Shown: positions 34,037-54,949 of the stretch, piece after piece
Numbering within the stretch: the stretch's first letter is position 1
Layout: each line of letters opens with the position of its first letter
DNA from: Paramecium tetraurelia
Lineage: Eukaryota; Ciliophora; Oligohymenophorea; Peniculida; Parameciidae
DNA length: 64,000 nucleotides
Assembly: GCF_000165425.1 (NCBI RefSeq)
Contig: NW_001799022.1
Location: forward strand, 372,001 to 436,000
Direction: 5' to 3'
Program-made: the position numbers and the translations under genes
Notes under the pieces: generated by a model
Seen by the model: only the letters and a program-made list of their open reading frames with translations
Database searches by the model: none
Told to the model about the DNA's origin: nothing

Positions 34037-34428
34037 TAATTTTTATATCGAATTTTCTGTAAAAATTCTCAATAATAAGTAGGTAACTCTGTGAAATACA
34101 AAAAGTTAATGGTTCCATTAATTGATTAGGATGTATTCACTAAAGTATAAATCAAAATCATAACTTAATGGATAATTATCAAGTTTTTAAATTGTATATT
34201 TAATATCCTTAGTTAATATAATATTTCCAAAAATTTCATAATAATTAAAGTTTATGAAAATCTGCAACTTAGAAGAATGATAGGTGAGATTAAAAGTGGA
34301 AGTGATGATAGTAAATGAGCTTGATGAATTATTCGAGTTTATAGTTTGAAAACCAATCAAATTTAAGTTTTGAGATTCTTAAACTAGATATAAAAAATAA
34401 TTTTCTAGTATATTAAAATAACAAATAT
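34037..34428. other. Divergent spacer between HSF-like and H2A.Z genes
   Basis: About 390 bp shared upstream region of two nuclear-protein genes. A+T rich; no motif such as a clean nGAAnnTTCn array was recognised. Confidence 0.45.
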
Positions 34429-34942
34429 ATGGTAATATATTTATTTTATTCTTTAGTCAGGAATTGCTAAGAGTGCAAAGGGTGGAAAAGGTGGAAAAGG
34501 AGGAAAAGGAGGAAAGTTTGGATCTGGAAAAAATAAGAAGACTCCTCAATCTAGGTCTTTGAAGGCAGGGCTTTAAGTATGTATTTTTGTAAATTTTAGT
34601 TCCCTGTTGGTCGTATTCATCGATATCTTAAGCAAAGAGTATCTGCTAAAAACAGAGTAGGAACTACATCAGCAGTATACGCATCAGCAATTTTGGAATA
34701 TTTAACTGCAGAGGTGCTTGAGTTAGCAGGGAATGCTTCTAAGGACTTTAAAGGTGAGAAAAAATCAATATAATTTTTTAGTCAGAAGAATAACTCCAAG
34801 ACATTTACAATTAGCTATTAGAGGAGATGAAGAGCTTGATATCCTTATCAGAGCAACAATAGCTGGCGGTGGTGTCATTCCTCATATTCACAAAGCTTTA
34901 TTAGGAAAGTAAACACCTGAAGGTGGTTAACCAAAGGAATGA
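34429..34942 (+). CDS. H2AZ: Histone H2A.Z variant
   Basis: 145 residues, introns of 25, 23 and 28 nt. The first intron (34432-34456) follows immediately after the ATG, so exon 1 codes only for Met. The N-tail is [19 protein letters not shown], as in ciliate H2A.Z (hv1). The body reads [108 protein letters not shown] and HIHKALL are H2A.Z hallmarks. Known role: transcription-associated variant nucleosomes; in ciliates it marks the active macronucleus. Confidence 0.97.
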
Positions 34943-37385: not shown

Positions 37386-38677
37386 ATGGACAATCCCGAA
37401 ACCCTCAAAATCCTCAAGGAAACAATAGACAAATTAAAGATCACCAAAGAGAACCTAAGAGAGATAAGGAAAACCAATTAAACCTTCCCTCGTCAAACCA
37501 ATACCAGACTCTTAGATGCGTTTTAATCGTTTGCTTAATTTGATCGTGCTCCAATCTGGATGATGAGGTATCGAATCCTTTGAACTCAGATAAGCAGGGA
37601 GATACCTTCCTGAATTCAAAGAAATCATGAAAAACAGAGATTTCTTTGATGCATGTTAAGATCCATTCATTGCAGCTGAAATCACCTTACAACCATTGAA
37701 ACAATTCGAAATCGATGCTGCTATCATATTCTCGGATATTCTAACACTTCCAAAAGCAATGGGAATGGAAGTATTTAAATGTAAATAACAACAATAGATT
37801 GTCATGGATAAAGAAAAAGGACCCATCATCAAAAATAAATTAGAAACCGTTGATGATATCAATAGAATCAAATCTCCAGATCCAGAGAGTCTAGAACATG
37901 TTTATGATGCATTATATCTAACAAGATAAGCTTTATAAGGAAAGTAGACTCTCATTGGCTTTTGTGGAGCTCCATTCACTGTTTTTTCTTATATGGTTGA
38001 AGGTGAGACATCCAAAATGTTTCTAAAAACTAAGAAATGGTTGTATTAATACACTTAAGAAACCAGAAAAGTCATGGATTTAATTGCTAGGGAGAGTGCT
38101 CAATATTTAATTAATTAAGTCAAAGAAGGAGGAGCCCAAGTTATTTAGATCTTCGATTCCTTTGCAGGGTATTACTCAAACTTAAACTTTAGATAAATTC
38201 CACCTATTGATTATATTGAATTTGTTATTCCCTCATTAAGAATCTTATTAGAAGGATTCAAATAAGAGTGTCCAAACACTCCATTAATAATGTTTGCTAA
38301 GGATCAAAATGGAGTTGAAGTTATCTTGGCTTTTCTCAAAATGTGCTTGGGGGAAACTCCTTTGATTGACGGGTTCTAGTTGGATTCCAATGTTAGTGAT
38401 GATGTCCTAATCAAAATTATTGAAAGTGATAGAACTATCCAAGGAAATCTTGAACCTGGAGTATTTAAATCATATTTTCTAGGTTTTGTATGGTACTTAA
38501 TAAATCATAAAAAAGAGAGTATCTTAAATGATTGAAAAATTATAAACAACCAGAAGATATATTATGAATTTATCGCATGGATTGACTCCTGATCATGAAG
38601 TTGAAAAAGTTAGGTAATTCATTTAGGAGTCTATACGATAATCAAAGTTATATAAAGTAAGAGAGATATTAGAATGA
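37386..38677 (+). CDS. UROD: Uroporphyrinogen decarboxylase
   Basis: 415 residues, two 22-nt introns. Conserved segments: [17 protein letters not shown] (substrate-binding Arg), [15 protein letters not shown] (catalytic Asp), [27 protein letters not shown] (active-site region), [12 protein letters not shown] and [12 protein letters not shown] (His near the pocket). The enzyme converts uroporphyrinogen III to coproporphyrinogen III in cytosolic heme synthesis. About 50 N-terminal residues precede the usual start and look unstructured, without a clear targeting peptide. The 3' intron must be removed to restore GNLEPGVLYG; without it the frame ends early. Confidence 0.97.
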
Positions 38678-40856: not shown

Positions 40857-41460
40857 ATGAGTTTTTAAAGAGGAGACCGTCGCCATGACTTCGAAGTCTA
40901 ATGTCCATATAATAAGAAACATTAAATGCCCTTCAGTAAATTATGGTTCCACATTTCCAAAGGATGCAAGGACAAGAGAGAAAAGGGTATTCTTTACAAT
41001 CTACTTAGGTCATAAATATGATACTTGTCCATATAATTGTTTACACATTGTTATTAAATCAGGAATGGAGAGACATATCGCTCAATGTAGATATAACTAA
41101 TTGGATTCAAAGAAGGCAGAGGAAGCTGATCTCTTCAAAGAAATGCAACTGGTTGCTGCTCAATAATTCGGGAATAATCCTCCAGAGAAGAATGTTCCTC
41201 AAATTTAATAACAATAACAGAATAAGTATAATAATAAACCTCAAAATGAAATCCCAGATTGGAGAAAGGTTTTTGAGGGAGACAGCGAACTTGAAGATGA
41301 CATTAAAGAAATTAATGAAATAAGCTATTAAAATTACGATGACGAATTTGATGATTCTTTTAAATTTAATAAAGCATCGTCAGTATTCTCCAAAAGTTTC
41401 TAGTCATCGGCTGCAAAAGAAAAGTCACAAAATGACGACAATGATAGTTATTATTATTGA
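40857..41460 (+). CDS. Two-finger CHHC zinc protein, GTSF1/U11-48K type
   Basis: 193 residues, one 22-nt intron between the two fingers. Finger 1: VQCPYNKKHQMPFSKLWFHI then SKGCKD (Cys, His, His, Cys). Finger 2: DTCPYNCLHIVIKSGMERHI then AQC. The CP[YF]N-x-x-H-x(8-9)-H-x3-C spacing, in a tandem pair at the N-terminus followed by an acidic, disordered tail (FEGDSELEDDIKEINE; NYDDEFDDSF), is the architecture of gametocyte-specific factor 1. In animals and in ciliates GTSF1 proteins are cofactors of Piwi clade Argonautes. A U11-48K-like spliceosomal protein is the alternative, but that family normally has one such finger. Confidence 0.85.
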
Positions 41461-41503: not shown

Positions 41504-43603
41504 TCAAAAATCATCTTATATTTAGTTTACTATGTTGTTAAAGTTTACTTCTTCTTTGTTTGTTATCTCCTTATAAGATTGATAACGAAACAATTAAATT
41601 AAATTCGTATTTTATGGGTTTTTCATAATTCCTAATTGTTTAGATACCTTCACTGCACCATCACTTTAAGTTATTCTTTCCAACAAATAGATAATCTATT
41701 AATCAGATCAATATTACTTTCTGTTCATTATCATTCACATTATTGTAGATTAAAATAGCAATTACACTTATGGCTTCAACAAACTAGTGTTTATCAATTG
41801 TATCAGTGTTATTTAGAGATGCAATTGCTTTGAAAACATGCATAAGCTATCCTTTAGATACCATTGAATTTGCCAATTCGAAATCTTAACAAAATTTCAT
41901 AAAGCCTGATAGGGTCATTAAATCTTTTGTATAATGATTATAGTATGGTTCAAAATGCTCCTGCATGATTTCATACAGTCTAATCTAAAAATGAAGTAAT
42001 TATTATGTAATACTATTTTTGGATCATCTAAAATCAACATCAAAATCTGTAAAATATGCTCTTGCTTTTCTATTCTTAACTAATTTTCATGGGGTATAAA
42101 ATATTGCTCAATCAATCCTGCAATATCATTACCATTGAACTTTTCTGCTATCAACTATAAAGAGTTAAAGAAGTTTATAAAATCCATTTTACCATTTTAA
42201 TTATCATTGTCATACAATTTATTAACTTTAAATTTTGGAGTTTTAGTTGAATCCAATCTCTTTTTAGGTGTTGATTAAATATAAAACATATCTGCATCCA
42301 CTTGAGTGATCAAAGTTCCAATTATACCACAATTTTAGAGTAGCTTTTTATATTTTATGCTTTTTAAATTTACTAGATTTAGAGGTTCTCCTATTTATGA
42401 ATAATATTCGAATACATTTCTTAACTCTTTTTCATAAGGTATTTATGAACCATATTATAATTATTTACTTTCCTCAACTATTTATTAGGATTATTTTAGA
42501 TTTGAATTTTACTATTATTATTAACCTTGATAAACTGTAGAGACTCTACTCTACTTTACAGAATTTACTCTGCTCAATGCCATTACTAATTGAGTTTATT
42601 CATTCTTTGTTTAATTATTCTATTTTGAAAAATTTTGAAATCCTGAAGAGTTCTCCAATTTCTCAAGTAATTAATAAAACAAATCCAATCCATTTTAGTT
42701 GTCTTCTTAAATTTAATGAAAAGAGATAATGAGTAAGCTTTCGACAAATTTAGAAAAATTAAATAAATACTTCCCATCATTCTTTAAATTTAAGATTGAA
42801 TCCCGATGAAACAAATCAAAAAATATCATTTAACCCTTAGTCTGTGTAATAATTAAAGGAATTATGTCAAATTATTATAAAAAATGCATGTATTAACTCT
42901 AAATTTAAGAAATCTTTTAACTTTAATCTTGAAATATGAACCCATGTATTTTACTCAATAATCCTTATACTTGAGAAATGATTTCCAAAAATTATTCATC
43001 TATTAAACTACGACATGCTTCAATTCTCTTTAAATCTTAACCAAAATCTGTTTGATCGTTTATTTTTTCATATAACTTTGATAAATGATTTTTATAAAGT
43101 AAAACAAAAGACTTTGATTGTTCAGGAATCCTATATAATTTAGTTGCTATTTTTAAAAGTAAATCTTTGAATTGGTCTAAAGTTAGGGTTTCTGTATTTT
43201 TTGTTGTTTAGAAATACAAAATATCAAGATCTTTGCTAGTTATTTCTAATTTAAATTATGTATAGATACCCTGTGTAATTATTTCAGCATCTGCCATTGC
43301 TTTTATAAATTTGCTTGATTTTAAATATTAAATGCTTGTTTTATTGCCAAATTACACATAAAACATAAAAATAATCCGAATATGCTAAACAATTACTGAT
43401 TCTTGCTGTCCTTTTTATTTTTGAACTTAGGATTGACTTAACTTTTTATCTTGATGCTAAAAGTAAGGTTTGTCTTTTATTTATTGAGAATTCGAAGGTG
43501 CAATTGAAGGACCTATTCTGATGTCCTCGTATTTTAGAATTGGATTATAGCCTTTTTGATTACTAGCAGCCAAAGGTACAGATTGTTTTAGAGAATTGGA
43601 CAT
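41504..43603 (-). CDS. Large helical protein, EF-hand-like C-terminus
   Basis: About 682 residues; introns of 29 and 22 nt (others that keep frame are possible). N-terminal 70 residues disordered (MSNSLKQSVPLAASNQKGYN). The rest is helical, with calponin/EF-hand-like units such as DNDNQNGKMDFINFFNSLQL (loop D-D-N-N-K-D) and FELANSMVSKGQLMHVFKAI...TIDKHQFVEAISVIAI. Calcium binding is uncertain because loops are degenerate. No enzyme motif. Its stop lies 43 bp from the stop of the convergent CHHC gene. Possibly cytoskeletal; not assigned. Confidence 0.6.
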
Positions 43604-44006
43604 TGTTATTAACTGCAATAAAAATAATATTTAAATATTTATGTAAATAAAATTATTGCTATTTTCAAAGTATCTTAAAAGAAACTAGATTAATTTGTAA
43701 TCTTACTCAATATATAGTTTTTTCTTTATGTGATAAATAAACTTAGACTATTTTTAATTTAAAATCATACAATTTAATGGTAATTTAAGTGAGAAATATT
43801 TTCTATTAAGTTTTATTTTTGTTTTCAAAATACTTATTCAACAAATTAACGGTTTCAAACTAATCATTAATGCATATGTATGAATGTAAATGATATTTAT
43901 TCCTAAATGGAATCGTAGTTTATTCTTACTTTTAAAATATTTCTATATTATTGAATTAAAAAGCAATATTATAGAAAATTAATATATTATTATTTTTATA
44001 AAGAAG
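43604..44006. other. Divergent promoter spacer
   Basis: About 400 bp between divergently transcribed genes (starts at 43603 and 44007). A+T rich, no clear element. Confidence 0.45.
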
Positions 44007-46016
44007 ATGTTGTTTGAACTAAACCAGAATGAATTGCGTTCTTATTAAGAAAAGTATGATAAAGTGGTAAAGGCGAAAGTGAATTTAGATTTTAAAAAAA
44101 CTAAAAAAATAATAATAGGTTAGTTTTCGATTACAGAAGCTCAAGCTGATTTAATTTTAAAAAAGGTATTCTCTCGTTAAAACTCTGATGAGTTGGATAG
44201 GGAAGGGTTCTTTACAACACTCAGGTATATATAATGTTTGCAAAATAAAGTGGACATTGAAACTTGTGATATAAAAACAATCAAACTGCAATTCCCACTT
44301 AGAGTAAATAGCAAATAGAGCTTGAAAAAGTCATTTTAGCCTCCAAACCCAGAAGAGCTGTTGGATAAGTCGATGATTGCTCTCAAGAATTTATAAAACT
44401 TAGTAAAAGAACCACCAAATTTAGAAAAAAAGTAGAGTTCTACTTCATAAGAAATAAAGGATAATCCAAATCAAGAAATCTAAAAAGAAAAAGAAGGAAT
44501 AACTGAAAACAAGGAGAAAGTACAATTGGAAGTAGTAAATGAGATTGAATAATGCAATGAACACATAAATTAAATCTAAGCACAAAATAATACAAATTAG
44601 TAATCTGAAGATGATTAATAAATAATTTAAAATAACTTGGAAGATGTAACTTAATTCAAAGAGCAAAATAAATATCATGTAATAACTGAGTTTGGTAACA
44701 TAGATATAAATGAAAGTAATGATATTTAATAAAATGACATGAATTTTACATTTGGGGATTCTAAACCTATTCTTTAGTAGTCATCAAATAATTTATAACT
44801 ATAGATAACTGAATCTTATGAAGTACCTCCAAAGACAGAGGAAATCAAACCTGATTTTATTGAAATAAGTGAAGATGAAGAGGACCTTCCTAAGAAGGAT
44901 GAGTCAAAAGATATTTATGTTTGGATTTCAGGTTATTAATCATTTAAAGATGGTGCATTTTCTTAAACTTATTACACTTACACTGTTTGTTCAGAAATTC
45001 GTACTGACCCACTTTAAGGAACATATACTAAATATTAAGTTAACAGAAGATATACTGATTTTTAGATGCTTCAATAGTATTTTACAAAGTCAAAATTGGG
45101 AGATATAATTCCTAGTTTACCAGAGAAGGAGGGTGTTATTTCTAGCATAAAGAGTATGGTTGTGGAGAATGCTGAGTTCATATCATAAAGGTAAGAATAG
45201 TTATAGTTGTTTTTGTAATATTTAAGCAAGTATAAGGAGGATTAGATATTATTGTCTTTTTTAAGTAATGATAAGAAGTTTGATTTAATATTAAAGGAAC
45301 TGAGATATTGCAAGGGAGATAATTAAGATGAGGATACTTTTTTGCCTGATCCTGATGAATATACTAGAAAATAGAAGTTAAAGGAAATGATTGCGGGAAA
45401 ATCTATTATGGACATTGTCGACTATTTTAAAGGGGAAAAAGAAATAGAAGCCAAGTTTCAGGAAGAATACCGATAGGTTTAGCAGCATTATAAGAACCTT
45501 GAGAATAAGAAGCTTGAATTAAGCAAATTCAAATAGTGTTTAAATTAGTTTTATGAACCAATTGAGAAATTCAGCTCTGGTTCTTAGTTATAGGTATCAT
45601 CATTCATTACTGAAGAGAATATTAAGTATGCTTAAGAAACTTAAAAACTGTTCTAATCAAATTGTAAATATCAAATATATATTTAGATTCTAAACACTAG
45701 AATTCGATAATGAATTAAGTAATGTAAATTGAATTTTAATTAAACAGTTTGACTTATAGTTTTGAATAGATATAGAAGTAAATCTACAAATGGTTTGCTG
45801 AAAAGAAAAGACTAAGGGAGGAGAAGAGTTCTAATAAGTAATATACTTAATTCTATGTTGATTAGGGCTGATCTTCAAAAAAATGATTCTGAAGAAGGAA
45901 GATTGCAATTTGTTATCTCCAAAACTAATGAAACTTTGATTAAGCTAGTTAGTTAAATTACTGAGGATTTGAAGGGTTTATTAAAGGACTTTGTAGAAGA
46001 ATTAACTTAGAATTGA
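44007..46016 (+). CDS. Sorting nexin with EH-like, PX and BAR-like domains
   Basis: 652 residues, introns of 23 and 28 nt. Residues ~1-95 form an EH-like helical domain (FKKTKKIIIGQFSITEAQAD; ELDREGFFTTLRYIQCLQN). A 200-residue Gln/Glu/Asn-rich linker follows. The PX domain (~300-420) has QTYYTYTVCSEIRTDP, YQVNRRYTDFQMLQQYF (the RRYxDF phosphoinositide-binding Arg/Tyr) and IIPSLPEKEG (the PxxP loop). The C-terminal 230 residues are long helices typical of a Vps5-like BAR domain. Expected role: endosomal coat/retromer-type sorting on PI3P membranes. The EH-plus-PX combination is unusual. Confidence 0.88.
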
Positions 46017-46398: not shown

Positions 46399-49300
46399 AA
46401 TGTTACTTCTTCTTACTATTACCCTAATTTAGCTTGTGCCAACTGCGAGAAACCAGATAATCTCGTAAAATATTACACTTATTCATAGATAGTAAATAGA
46501 AATGGGGTGTAAAACATCACGAAATGGAGTCTGTCAGGAATTATGTTCATTGGGATAATTTAATTGTGAAAACTAATAGATTTAATGTGAGTACGGATAT
46601 TTCCTGTACTTAGGAAATGCCTGTGTGTAATGGTAAAAAAAGTTAGTTATGTAGTCCTTATTAATAGGTCATAGATAGCTTCACCTTATATTGTATGGAT
46701 TGTGTGGAGCATCCTTATACCTGGTCGAGCAACAGAACTTGTTCATATGAATACACTATCGAAAGCGGAGATTTTATGAAGGGAACATATGTACGTAAAT
46801 CAAAGCAGTATACTGAATTATATTATCTTGGTCCTTCTACTTCAAGTGGGGTTAATTTGGATTCAATAACAAGAGATGTAAATGCATAGTGTAACGTATA
46901 TAGGTTCAATATTAATATGAAACTTATATTTGTTCAGGTTGTAAGAGATTTTGTGTTCCAGGAGTAAGTGGAAATTGTAATAGTATCACTTCCCCATATG
47001 CTGAGGATAGTGGAATAATGGGCGTAGAATGCCTATTAACCTACGAATTCAAAAATTAATTGTGTATAAGTTGTCCATCAGATTGCTTGAAATGTTCAAA
47101 TGGGTAATGCACCTTATGTAATGATGGCTATATGATATAGAATGGTTAATGTAAGAAATGTGGTAATGGCTGTTTGAATTGCTTCATCGTATAATTATAG
47201 ACAGTTTGCACAAAATGTAGAGAAGGTATGGTGGCTTCTTTGGATTAAAAAAATTGTGAAGAGTGTGGCAATGAATGTTAAAGATGTGAGTATGTAACCT
47301 ATGCTTCAAATGCTCAGTATCGTTATCCAACAAGAACTATGATAAAGATTTAAGATAGAATGAAATAAAAAGATTACATTAAAAGATGTAGACAATGTTC
47401 AACAAAGAGTTTTGTAAGTCATAATGGAATAGATTGTGTGACATGTCAAATACCAAAATGCGATTTGTGTTATTACAATATACGAGGGGATGTTACAACT
47501 ATGGATTATGATTTTGAACCTAGTAAAGGCAATGATCTTGTATCAAATTTATTGTGTTTCAAATGCATTAGTGGCTACACTGTTAGTGCTAATAAATAAA
47601 GTTGTGTAGCTTCAGCGTTATCTCCAGATTAATGTGATCGGAAATATTAAGATACGACTTTAAAATGTAGATAGTGTGTAAATAATGTAATATTGAATTA
47701 ATAAAGTAATATTTGTTCTAGTTCGTGCACTTCCTATATAAGTTAATGTTCCAGTTGCTTTTCTTATAAGAGTTTGGATTAAACTTAATACACGGATGGT
47801 ACAGGTTAGATATTTATAAGAGCAGCACAAACACTCTATTAATGTATTTAATGCAGCAATGGGTATTATCCGAATATCTTTACTGGCTTTTGTGATCCTT
47901 GTCCTAATAATTGTCAAAAATGTTGGCAATACTCATAGACCTATAATTTTACAGATTACTTATATAAAATGTAACCAATTAGTAATTCATTAAAGGAGAC
48001 TTTCTTAAATGATATTCCTATCAAAGTTTAATGTACATCCTGTAATTTTGGCTATTAACTATATGGGAACGAATGCTTAGGTTGCAGTAGCAATTGCTAA
48101 GTTGAGAATCAAATTGTGAGTGATGACTCAATTAATAGTTGTATTTTTAAATCAACTTATGCCTTCTGCGGAGAATGTTATGATACTTTCAATGATAGAT
48201 CTTTAGTCTCGGATAAATCTGAATGCATCGATTGTCCTTTGAATTGCTTAGCATGCAGAGACAGAGAACCATATGAAATAACAAACCTTTATTTTAATCC
48301 AGACAATTCCAACTTACTCCAATATGGAAGATTATGTTACAAGGCTTAGACTATGACTATGTCGAACTTTTAAAGTGTTTCATATAATTCTTATTTGAAT
48401 TTACCTATTTTGTGTATCTATTAACATGCAGATTCAACTAATACCAAAAGATGTCGTCATACAGCTCAAATTACTGTTCATGTGTATTGCAATGAGGATG
48501 AATATAATTCTATTTATAATACCTTGAATTCCGCTTAAAAATTCTATCACTACAATCTGAATGATTATTATTCATTAGATTTCGAAGATATTGCCTCCAT
48601 TGAGTTTTAATATTTAGAGACTTTTCAATCATATTCAACTAAGAATTAAGCAACATTAGAAGAATTAACTTTAGACATACTATTTACTAATTCTATTGAT
48701 TTTAAATGCACATTTCAAAAGTCTACATAGCTCATAACAGAGTTCCATAAAAATGTTTATGCATTGAGTAAGTTCTAAGTTAATATTCAGAGTGCTCACA
48801 GTTAACCAATTACTTTTTACATTACAGACAATTTCTACTTACAGGATTTCCCTTTTGTGATGATCAAAAACATTAATATCTATTCCAATTTATAGAATGA
48901 CTTTGGATTAGTAATAACTAATAATATTTCATCTACATACTTGTAAATATAGAATTGTAAACTGGGATATGATTAAAATAAATATAAGGATTCATAAATA
49001 TTTACTCTGAATCTTACAAACCTTAATTAATTAGAATTGAAGGATGTCTACATTTAAAATTTATAACATTCAGATCAAATTACTGTTAATCAACTAAAAA
49101 TCAATAACTACGTATTTGAATTCTCTAATGTGTATTTAAAAAGTAGTTAATTTATACATAATACAATATTTCCTTTAACACCTTATAGTATAGTAAATAT
49201 TAACAATTTAGTAATTCAAGATTGTATATTCACTAATTCATCATTGTTCAATAATCAGCAGGAGTATTAGATATTTGTTTCTAAGTTTTCAATCAACCAA

Positions 49301-52300
49301 TTGATTATCAAATAGACACAATTTTATTAAGCATCAAGCATTATAAAATCTAGTTATATTTCCACATTGTCCATAAATTAATTAGATATAATTGGAAATA
49401 GATTTAATGATACAGAATTATTTAAATGTAACACCTATTAAATATAGAATGTTTACATCTATATGAATGTTTTTACTAACTATTCACTAATCTTTACAAC
49501 TGCAGACTAAGTTCCAGATACTGAAACATTTTATAATCAAATCAAAAATCAGGGATTTGAAATATCAAATCTTAAATTTGTAGAAAATACTTGTTACAAT
49601 ATCAATTGTCTTATGCTCTTATAAACACCATACAACTCAGAAGAAATATATTCAGATTTAGTAATGTAGAATTTTTATATATTTAATAACTACGTTGAAT
49701 TATCATTAATACAAAGGCAATCAGTTTCTTCTGCGATCACCAGAGTTACTGAAATGAAGTAAGTCAAACTAACTAATATTGTAATTGATACTCAATTATC
49801 CATAACTGTGATTTCATTCTAAGAAATAGCCTCCTTAGAAGTATCCAAATTCTTATGTGATTTCTCGAAAAACATCATCGGCAAGAAAGACACAAGTCCT
49901 CGTACTAAGATTGAGAACAGTTCAATCATCTAATATCCTTTTAATAACAAATTACCTAGCAATACTACGTGTTCCTATTAGAAATAATCATTCGGCAGTT
50001 ATAACTCATATTGTTTGGATGTCTAGGATTTCATATACGGAGTAAAGATATCTGATGCTTCTCTGAAGGGTCTTCTAGGAATTGATAATGGATTCATTTA
50101 CATTCAATCATATGAATCATTGATGAAGCAAACTAGTAATTTCATTATTTAAAGTGCGACTAAAAATAAATTGGATTTTTACTATGGATATAACAATGAA
50201 GTCATAATCTTAGAAAATATCAATATTTTTAATACATCTATTGCAATTTCAAATCCAGTAACTATTATTGGAAGTGTCATTATTGAATCTGATTAAATTC
50301 AAACTATCCTTATAGATAATGTCCAATTAATCGGCAATCACCTACATTAATTAGTTGAGTCTATCACTATGGAAATATCTACTTGCTTTACAATTTTGAG
50401 TCCGAACAGCATGATTAGTATCAAACATTTAGTTGCTTAGAATAATAGAGCTACTTAATCACAATATGGCATAAATATCATAAAGAGTCAATCATTAAGA
50501 GTATTTTCAGCTTTGTTTAACTATACAAATATAATGGAATCAAATTGGCTTGATAGATTCGATGAATATTAAATCAATAATTATTCTTAGTTCCTTGGAT
50601 AATTCAACATAGAGTCTGAGGGTTCAAATATATATATCTAATGTAAGAACTTGGAACTTGACTAAACCCAATTTCTGAATGGCAAATCTCTTATGGGAAC
50701 TGCCTTTTATTTTCTAGGTCAGGACCTAGTATCTATTGCCATTAACAATACTGAGTTTACAAATCTATCAACGTCACTGGAATATGTTGATTAGGCTTAT
50801 GGAGGATCATTATATTTAAATTTATAGAAGTCTAGTTATGAAATTAAATTAAACAAGGTCACTATGAATCATAGTGTATCACGAATAGCTGGTGGATGCA
50901 TTTATGTGCAAACATCCATATATGAATAAATTATCTCCATTGATAATAGTCAATTTATTTAATGTTAATCCATATAAAGTTCTTTAATAGATATATAGTT
51001 TTCTGTATCTTCTTTAATTTTGCCAGCCTTAAGTATTAGGAATACAAATATAATGAATAACAATTTTGAAGGATTTCTAAGATAACTAAGTGATATCAGT
51101 GTTGAAGAAGAGTAATTGATAATATCTGGGATAAGTTTGATAAAATAGAATTATGGCATATTTGAAATCCAATAAAGTTAATTTAATGATATACAGATTC
51201 AAGGATTAATGGAACTTAAAAATATGTTTATGGTAATCCTGCAAGATTTAGTGATTAAAGATACTACTGTATTTAGTCAATCTTTAATAGAAATTACTCA
51301 CTACACAAAGTATTCGACAGTAGAACTTTAGAATGTTGTTATTGACAATATTACAGAATAAAAAGTGTTAACAAAAGAATAGTTTATTTATAAATTCAAT
51401 AGTCGATGCCAATCAATTTCTTCAATGTTCGAACTAGCAAACACTTAAACCTGTACAGAATAAGAGGATTTAAGATAGTTCTATAAGGATATCTACGATT
51501 ACAGACAAATATCACAAACTAAGTTGGATAATAGTACATTGTACGATTATTATGACTCCTTATCATACTCAGACAAATATGCCCTCGATGAAATTAAATT
51601 AAGTACTTCTAGAGAAATTAAATCTTTATATTCTTATAGAAATGTAAATTTTGTAGAAAATGTAATAACACAATAGGATTTTAGTTTGTGTTATTTTACA
51701 AATCTATAATTCACCTATTAAATCGACAGCATTCCTCATTATATTAAATTAAGCCATATTAAATCGACTAACAATATTAACATGAATTCAGTTACAATTA
51801 AAAATTCTTTCTGTGATCGATGTAAATAAGGGCTAATTCTAATTAATAACTATGATTTATCAGCTCACAATACTACTAGCATCTTTGAATTGACTTGTTA
51901 AAATAACATAATTGGCTACTTTGGTTGTTTGGTCATAACGACTCAAACTATCCCTTAATTAAATATTACTTACAGTAATAGAATCCTATAGAGTTCAACT
52001 GCAACCTAAAAATATCATATTAATTTATAGCAAAGTCTATTTTAAAGTAATTCTGCTCAAATAGGGGCTGGTGTTTCAATAATCGGAGTGAGCATAAAGA
52101 TAATAGATAGTCAATTTATGGATAACAAAGCAACTTTGGTTGGAGGAGGAATGGCCTTCGTTTATGATTCAGAAAGTAAGAATATCTTAGATCAATTTAA
52201 CAACAACTACATCAATAATGATGCCCAATTAGGTAGTGCAATTTATATGATGAATAATAATCTTAACAATCTTGAAAATTCGCAGATCTTCATTCATCAT

Positions 52301-54949
52301 AACAGCAATACATAAATTGAACAGATGCCAGAAGGGTTGGGATTGATGATGTTAGAAGGTTAAATGATGGACATCTCAACATTTTAAGAGAATGATGGAG
52401 ACTTGAATGATGATAATATCATTGATAACTCGAATCTCCAAATAATTGATATTGTAAGTGTTCAGTCTACCAGCATACCTAATTTTAAAAGCAATTACTT
52501 ATTGCTTCCTTCTGGTTAATAGATATCATAATACAAATACTATTATGAGGATACTTAAGAACAAATACCATACAATTGGATATTTAGAATTTACAATTTG
52601 GATAAGAATAAAAATATCATAAAATCAGTTTCCTCTACTGAAACTTGCACTGTTTCAGGTCGTCTGATGGATGAATTAAATTTAGATTTCACTAAGTCGT
52701 TTCTGCTTAATTTCACTTCTTATTCGGCTACATTTTTTGATGAATCCAGCAACTCTTTTAATTTTGACAAATTATAGATATACTTCGACCCATTCTTAGC
52801 AGATAACTTATTCTTATAACTCAAATGTAATCACTTTATAATATACATTAGTCTAATGCACCTCCATATAGATCCCAATCTACAATCAACAACCTCCTTA
52901 CAATGTCCTTTCTTATAATAAAAACTACGCTCTATATCTGAATCTAAAAACCATTCCTTGCCAAATTGGAGAAGCCTACCTAGAATAAAAATGTACCGCA
53001 TGTAGCTAAGCAAATACTTATTCTGTTCAAGAGAATAGTGTTCAATGTAAAGGCATCAATTCAATTTAAATGGATATGGTTACTCCTGTTAGAATTAAAT
53101 TGAAAGAACAATATTGGCGGCCTTTTCCAAAAAACGATAATATTGAAGAATGCTATAACTTGAAGTCCAATTGTCTTGGAGGATGGGTTCCAGGTGATAC
53201 CTCCTGTTTTGATGGTCATGTAGGTGCTTTATGTGAATAATGTGACATCTATGGAATCAGAGGACCCTAATATTCAGTAAGTAAGAAATATACTTGTGGA
53301 GCTTGTTAAGATACTATTCAATCCAACATTCTCATCATAATTGCCATTTCGATTTTCACTCTGGTCACAATGATTATGTCCGTTAAAGGGAACTATGAAT
53401 TTATTGAGAACTTAATCCATCAGTAAGTTTTGTAATCCATTGGAGCCAGAATTAACATATAATAAAGTATATCAGTATTTATTAACTAGATAATGCATCC
53501 ATAATTATGAAGTAATTAACCAATTATTTATAAATCATTGCATCTTTAACTACTTTTAGAATTTCGATACCTGCTGCTTTTGTTTCGTCTATGGAAGTAT
53601 TGGGAAATCCAACTCAATCTATGGCCTACTCTCTAGATTGTTTTTTGGTGACTTTTGCAACTATGGATTTATTGTACTTCAGAATGGCTTGGGCATTATT
53701 GATGCCACTATTCTATATGATTGTATTCTTTTTTGGCTATTTTTCTGTTGTATTAATGAGAATAGCTCCATTTAAAATTGGAATCATTTACACTACATTT
53801 ATTTACATGTTCATCTATTTGTAGCCTACTTTAGTTGGAGGGTTCATTTCTTTATTGAGTTCGAGAACTGTCAGTGGAATAGAATGGGTCTAGAGCAATG
53901 TCAGTTATTAATATTATACTGATATGCATCAATATTATATTTACATCTTTATTGGTCCCAATTTATTTGTCTGGAGTCTCATGTTACCATTTATATTCAT
54001 GCATTTGATCAGAAGAAATAAGCATTAATTGGAGAGTATGGAAGTACGCAAGAGATGGGGTTTCTTCTATCATGAATATACCAATTAAGCCTATTTATGG
54101 GAATTTGTAAAAATCTTTGAGAAGGAACTTGTGATAATTTCCTTAACATTTTATGAGAATAAAATTGTTATTAAGGGATTAATGATATTTCTAATAGTAT
54201 TTTTGTATGGAGCATTTTCATTTACTTTTATACCTTACAAATAAAAGAAGTTGAATTTTATAGATTAGATGTCAACAGCAGCCTGTTCTTGCTCACTATG
54301 TTTAGGTGTTCTCATTTATGCCAGTATGAATGAAAATTTAGACTATTTATAATACATTATGTTCTTAATCATAATTATAATCAATGCTTGTTTGATTGCT
54401 TTGATCCTCTTTCATTTACTTGAAGGCTATATTAATAAATTCGACGATAAACTTGACATTGTAAGGGCCAAAATTAAATTAAAATTTCCAAACATTGAAT
54501 TCTAATACCCCTGTCTAAAAAAACTATTAATAAATAAGAAGGAAATGAAAGAGAAAGTGATTAATTATTGGGCAATCCTGAGATATGAGACTAGAGAGGG
54601 TATTAAAAGAAGAAGAAATGATAAAAATTCACCTTTATTAATCGAAAGAACTAAGAGATCTGGCTAGCTTTCTTAAGATTCATCTGAAAAGGATATAGAT
54701 ATTAAGCAAGGAAATTCATTAGATCAACAAGTAGAATTGAAGAGCCCAGATATTGAAAATAACGATGACGTCAAGTTACTCAAAAGACCAAGTTCGAATT
54801 ATTAAGGATTAATGATCTAATAGTAGCACTCTTTAGATTCATCTTAAATTCATTTAGGGAAAGTTTATCCAGAAACAAATTCTGATGTCCCTACTACTCG
54901 AAAAGTAGAAAATAGCTTGGAGAAAATAATAATCAAGAAGCCAATATGA
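46399..54949 (+). CDS. Giant cysteine-rich, beta-helix-like multipass surface protein
   Basis: One gene of about 8.5 kb coding roughly 2,800 residues, with at least five introns (24, 22, 47, 25, 23 nt recognised). Signal peptide MLLLLTITLIQLVPTA. Furin/EGF-like Cys repeats (CPSDCLKCSNGQCTLC; CKKCGNGCLNCF) to ~residue 640. About 1,500 residues of Ser/Thr/Asn/Ile-rich repeats of parallel-beta-helix (pectin-lyase-like) character follow, including NKATLVGGGMAFVYDSES and AQLGSAIYMMNNN. Then a juxtamembrane Cys module (CLGGWVPGDTSCFDGHVGAL) and about seven TM segments (ILIIIAISIFTLVTMIM, LMPLFYMIVFFFGYF). The Ser/Lys-rich tail is cytosolic. Typical of large ciliate surface or adhesion-type proteins; ligand unknown. 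The exact intron set is incomplete (exon sum off by one base). Confidence 0.85.

Follow-up and report, generated by a model that had tools for sequence, protein, structure and literature searches.

The gene at positions 40857-41460 (+) of the window, a stretch of 64,000 nucleotides of Paramecium tetraurelia DNA, raises the question of whether it encodes the Gtsf1 of scnRNA selection, another protein of the same family, or a protein of a different kind. The initial annotation had proposed that it may act in the scnRNA pathway. A Gtsf1 that acts in scnRNA selection in Paramecium has already been published (PMC11724296), and, judged from what that account says of it, the window gene is probably its sister gene. 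The window corresponds to 372001-436000 of contig C69, and the genome searches covered 231 contigs totalling 69.07 Mb; the paralogues are named below by their contigs. The setting is a Paramecium-like genome rich in Piwi genes: Piwi domains give 20 matches in the genome, which we count as about 15 loci on 15 contigs. Besides these Piwi genes, the use of the ciliate code, the 22-nt introns and a gene for a piggyBac-type transposase agree with a Paramecium.

The window gene contains two exons and one intron of 22 nt. Exon 1 (40857-40986, +) is open from the ATG under table 6, encodes the N-terminus, finger 1 and the start of the linker, and ends at a GT donor. The intron (40987-41008, +; GTATTC...TTAG) has to be spliced out for the full frame, and the unspliced reading runs into a TGA after 54 residues. 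Exon 2 (41009-41460, +) encodes the remaining linker, finger 2 and the acidic tail, and ends with a TGA stop. Once the intron is removed, the gene reads through under table 6 at the location originally given for it, and the spliced coding sequence of 582 nt specifies, in the ciliate code, a protein of 193 residues and 23.0 kDa. The intron has the same position, phase and length as that of paralogue C80. In the finger region, pS is 0.67 and pN is 0.31 compared with paralogue C218, while pS is 0.82, a saturated value, and pN is again 0.31 compared with C80. The intron common to C80 and the excess of synonymous over non-synonymous differences in the finger region support the view that the window gene is real and constrained.

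The two tandem CHHC fingers read from the letters by the initial annotation, which had proposed a search with a CHHC profile, are recovered by Pfam PF05253. Specifically, PF05253 matches the window protein twice, both times near the N-terminus, with E 7.9e-18 and 64.4 bits, where the cut-off is 21.1, far beyond chance. Finger 1 (residues 16-37, CPYNKKHQMPFSKLWFHISKGC; 40902-40967, +) has the spacing C-x5-H-x9-H-x4-C, with residues 14-35 as the best PF05253 stretch, and finger 2 (residues 50-70, CPYNCLHIVIKSGMERHIAQC; 41026-41088, +) has the spacing C-x5-H-x9-H-x3-C. Compared with finger 1 of mouse GTSF1, finger 1 of the window protein has one more residue before the last cysteine (H-x4-C). No Pfam family other than PF05253 exceeds its cut-off in the 193 residues, and an NCBIfam scan of the protein gives nothing above cut-off. 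The closest solved chain is mouse GTSF1 (6x46; E 5e-9, 39.7 bits), matched over both fingers, followed by the GTSF1 of 9nhb (E 0.015, 18.6 bits). Both its domain plan and its sequence place the window protein in the GTSF1 family. A review gives all GTSF1 homologues as smaller than 20 kDa (PMC9539491); the window protein exceeds this figure with its 23.0 kDa, and we take the figure, as worded there, to be descriptive rather than defining. Two other identities were considered and set aside. TRM13, which combines a CCCH finger, one CHHC finger and a methyltransferase domain, was rejected because the window protein matches PF05253 alone and because this genome has its TRM13 on C176; the whole window protein and the paralogue profile are also closer to GTSF1 than to TRM13. 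The PRC2 cofactors Rf2/Rf4 were dropped because the corresponding Rnf2/Rnf1 are described, where the source mentions them, as RING-finger proteins.

The PF05253 matches and the closeness to mouse GTSF1 also bear out the earlier assignment of the protein to the GTSF1 type rather than to U11-48K, the spliceosomal protein from which the finger takes its Pfam name. U11-48K carries one CHHC finger, and its solved chain has only 37 residues, whereas the window protein has two fingers in tandem. The U11-48K chain is matched over one finger at E 0.07 (16.4 bits), and for the whole window protein against solved chains GTSF1 outscores U11-48K by 23 bits. A profile made from the four paralogues gives E 2.4e-12 for 6x46, 9.4e-5 for 9nhb and 0.0016 for U11-48K. 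Single fingers, in contrast, do not separate the two families, finger 2 alone reaching a score of 57 with U11-48K and of 53 with its mouse counterpart, and the two other Paramecium CHHC proteins mentioned in PMC11724296 are called U11-48K-like there. The RNAs of the minor spliceosome were also sought in the genome. U6 RNA, the positive control, gives 8 matches, three of them above cut-off; U11 and U12 give no match at E<=1, and U6atac gives two matches, both below cut-off. Because each of these RNA searches, that for U6 included, scored the 39-48 best of several thousand first-look candidates, absence from them is not proof. With U6 found and nothing above cut-off for U11, U12 and U6atac, a spliceosomal identity is unlikely, and we give very little credence to a U11-48K-type protein at this locus.

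Four intact double-CHHC genes were found in the genome, encoding the window protein (23.0 kDa), C218 (24.0 kDa), C80 (14.0 kDa) and C157 (18.2 kDa), together with one broken copy. The PF05253 search gave 6 matches in five places (C218, C80, C176, C69 with both window fingers, and C58; 14 of 14 candidates scored), and the search with the window protein gave 6 matches, at C69, C218, C80 and C157 (6 of 6 candidates scored). With C157 as the query (E<=1), C218, C58 and C80 were recovered and C69 was not. No single search recovered every CHHC gene, so the list of paralogues may be incomplete. C218 (158756-159364) encodes 202 residues without an intron (PF05253 E 1.1e-13), C80 (from 126949) encodes 115 residues and has its intron at the position of that in the window gene (E 4e-14), and C157 (from 164859; coding sequence 453 nt, gene 474 nt) encodes 150 residues and has an intron inside finger 2 (E 1.4e-8). 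Each of the three carries the same two fingers as the window protein, with identities to it of 48% for C80, 38% for C218 and 27% for C157, and C218 also has the N-terminus MSFxxGDxRHDFxV in common with it. In a tree of six double-finger regions from animals and Paramecium (58 columns), animal and Paramecium proteins separate with support of 99, C218, C157 and C80 group without the window protein with support of 91, and C218 joins C157 with support of 52. The grouping at 91 runs against C80 as the closest relative of the window protein, which identity and intron position suggest, and the tree is too short to settle the point. The broken copy, on C58 near 463.6 kb (L032:1624-2052), is a decayed duplicate of the C157 gene in which finger 1 is readable and finger 2 is not; the neighbouring open frames of C58 and C157 match at 92% over 358 residues. 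C80 is located directly upstream of a NOWA-type GW-repeat gene, an adjacency of two small-RNA cofactor genes that may be due to chance.

With a minimal 3xFLAG-HA tag, which we take to be 3.9 kDa, the four proteins would have masses of 26.9 kDa (window), 27.9 kDa (C218), 22.1 kDa (C157) and 17.9 kDa (C80). Charmant et al. 2024 identify Gtsf1 with PTET.51.1.G0490019, an 18-kDa partner of Ptiwi09 that acts in scnRNA selection and is needed in P. tetraurelia for the selective degradation of scnRNAs matching the somatic genome; the 3xFLAG-HA fusion has a predicted mass of 23.6 kDa (PMC11724296). The tagged window protein is heavier than this fusion, while tagged C157 is lighter by about 1.5 kDa, which linkers could make up. 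Of the four proteins, C157 comes closest to the published mass, and the window gene is thus probably a different paralogue. Judged by mass, C157 is probably the orthologue of the published Gtsf1, and the window protein is probably another CHHC protein. That the window gene in particular is the scnRNA-pathway gene is therefore not upheld, as the 18-kDa Gtsf1 described there is closer in mass to C157 (18.2 kDa) than to the window protein (23.0 kDa). PMC11724296 states that Gtsf1 is distinct from two other CHHC proteins reported earlier, the U11-48K-like ones mentioned above, and the window gene may be one of these.

If the window gene were nevertheless the orthologue of the published Gtsf1, and the initial annotation simply right, its product would bind Ptiwi09 in the maternal macronucleus and be the proposed trigger of the selective loss of scnRNAs that match the soma, as described for Gtsf1 in PMC11724296. 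Two N-terminal CHHC fingers followed by a low-complexity or unstructured tail are described for Gtsf1 in that paper, and the window protein has a similar plan. Of the three paralogues searched, it also matches mouse GTSF1 best, at 39.7 bits compared with 31.2 for C218 and 20.9 for C157. The published constructs, as given in PMC11724296, use gene positions 249-479 and coding-sequence positions 247-480; base 480 lies inside the coding sequence of the window gene (582 nt) and outside that of C157 (453 nt, with 474 nt for the whole gene), which makes C157 an imperfect fit in length. Against orthology stand the published masses, the two further CHHC proteins named as distinct from Gtsf1, and C157 itself, which has three tail tryptophans, the number reported for PIWI binding in mouse GTSF1. 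On balance, we consider it improbable that the window gene is this orthologue. Among the literature matches listed, there is no functional account of the window gene.

Chromosomal position was also considered as a guide to the published gene, and did not point to any one of the paralogues. The gene numbers in PMC11724296 place PGM together with GTSF1 on P. tetraurelia scaffold 49. C164, which has the best PF13843 match (a piggyBac-type transposase gene), was taken as carrying PGM on that match alone, and none of the 8 PF13843 matches in the genome shares a contig with a double-CHHC gene. In C164 1-60000, 114000-120000 and 431001-501613, the CHHC pattern is seen just twice, each time as a single match of the kind expected by chance. 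The duplicate of the PGM neighbour on C164 is on C178; for a gene near the end of C164, no duplicate was found. No neighbours of the window gene (window 30001-52000) are shared with the 4-5 kb loci of C218, C80, C157 and C58.

The gene at 41915-43828 (-) faces the GTSF1-like gene and has a weak p25-alpha match below cut-off. Its duplicates are on C177 (79 and 69% identity, in two pieces), on C164, C178 and C159 (37-38%), and on C22 and C216 (27 and 34%); on C177, neither the PF05253 search nor the window-protein search of the genome gives a CHHC match. Other genes nearby include a histone H2A gene at 34346-34942 (+; PF16211 E 1.7e-13, searched with its C-terminal part), whose Gly/Lys-rich N-terminus may suit an H2A variant, a uroporphyrinogen decarboxylase gene at 37627-38535 (+; PF01208 E 1.3e-63 for the part searched) and a gene for a PX-domain protein at 43884-45713 (+; PF00787 E 2.3e-11). 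An open frame of 2085 codons at 46889-53146 (+) is rich in cysteine in its N-terminal part and in this resembles a large surface protein.

The tail of the window protein is 123 residues long, with N, Q, D, E and K abundant and a net charge of -10, in line with its first description as acidic. Two patterns stand out in it: P-x-W (PDW, residues 126-128; 41254-41262, +), which is found in 3.9% of shuffled tails and is weak alone, and the acidic-aromatic DDEFDDSF (residues 154-161; 41338-41361, +), a candidate Piwi-binding pair whose pattern is found in 2.7% of shuffled tails. DDEFDDSF was aligned by eye with DDIWDQLW in C157 and with DEDWDKDLW in mouse GTSF1, and the tail patterns were chosen after the sequences had been seen; with these shuffle rates, the motifs are thus suggestive only. 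In mouse GTSF1, W98, W107 and W112 are reported to bind PIWI (PMC9385479). The candidate aromatics in the tail of the window protein are W128 in PDW and F157 and F161 in DDEFDDSF, and the comparison is suggestive of a possible Piwi-binding role for these three residues; if the motifs correspond, the window protein has phenylalanines where mouse GTSF1 has W107 and W112. The C157 tail contains W91, W132 and W136, with PNWG and DDIWDQLW, and the program's own alignment of C157 with mouse GTSF1 is not significant. The C218 tail contains W149 in PVWG and W184 in DDEWD, and the C80 tail contains no tryptophan.

The basic residues R26, R29, K36 and K39 of mouse GTSF1 are reported to bind RNA (PMC9385479). 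The corresponding residues of the window protein are P25, K28, K35 and D39, two of the four being basic and K35 depending on the placement of a gap. The same positions are A, R, R and Q in C157, P, K, Q and D in C218, and P, Q, S and D in C80. If the additional residue of finger 1 is given a different place, the third position becomes G (G36) in the window protein, E in C157 and G in both C218 and C80. Finger 1 of the window protein has a net charge of +4. Together with the linker, the charge is +6 in the window protein and in C157, +5 in mouse GTSF1, +4 in 9nhb, and 0 in C218 and C80.

On our preferred reading, to which we assign a probability of about 55%, the product of the window gene is a cofactor of the GTSF1 family, encoded by one of the four intact double-CHHC genes found in this genome; orthology to the 18-kDa Gtsf1 is improbable. 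Finger 1, with its net charge of +4 and with K28 and K35 matching two of the four residues that bind RNA in mouse, would touch RNA; the acidic tail would dock on a Ptiwi Argonaute through W128 and F157/F161; and the protein would steady or activate that Ptiwi on its target RNA, as GTSF1 does in animals, or mark it. The C-terminal domains of mouse GTSF paralogues are reported to restrict them to particular PIWI proteins (PMC9385479), and by analogy the divergent tail of the window protein suggests that it serves a different Ptiwi, or a different stage, from the published Gtsf1. The paralogues may even form a set, each matched by its tail to a different Ptiwi, with the 18-kDa form serving Ptiwi09 in the maternal macronucleus. 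The window protein, with Phe for Trp in the docking motif, would then serve another, for example the Ptiwis of the iesRNA pathway in the new macronucleus or those of the vegetative siRNA pathway; we put this forward tentatively, as a possibility below even odds.

A GTSF-like paralogue could also have left the Piwi pathways and act as a general RNA-binding adaptor for tRNA or mRNA. The net +6 of finger 1 and linker and the lack of a W..W pair in the window tail are in keeping with such an adaptor, as are the reports that finger 1 of mouse GTSF1 binds RNA and that mouse GTSF1 binds tRNA (PMC9539491). The P-x-W and the acidic-aromatic motif in the tail, weak as they are, and the roughly 15 Piwi loci of the genome point the other way. 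So do the GTSF proteins described in PMC11724296, PMC9539491 and PMC9385479, which act in small-RNA pathways, an argument qualified by the fertility of mouse Gtsf1l/Gtsf2 knock-outs reported in PMC9385479. We regard the adaptor as rather doubtful and prefer the GTSF1-family cofactor.

In PMC11724296, a single Paramecium GTSF1 gene is described as acting at one step, the selection of scnRNAs in the maternal macronucleus. The presence of at least four intact GTSF-like genes beside about 15 Piwi loci would allow a test of whether each Piwi pathway (scnRNA, iesRNA and siRNA) has its own GTSF cofactor; pathway-specific GTSF cofactors have already been suggested for the animal paralogues. It also carries a warning, in that naming a Paramecium double-CHHC gene GTSF1 requires checking which paralogue is meant.

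Compared with the animal proteins, the window protein resembles both mouse GTSF1 (6x46) and the GTSF1 of 9nhb in that both fingers align, finger 1 is basic and the tail contains aromatic residues, and its tail is longer. Compared with the P. tetraurelia Gtsf1 described in PMC11724296, it is alike in its two N-terminal CHHC fingers, its low-complexity tail and its origin in a ciliate that eliminates DNA under the guidance of scnRNAs, and differs in mass, 23.0 kDa as against 18 kDa.
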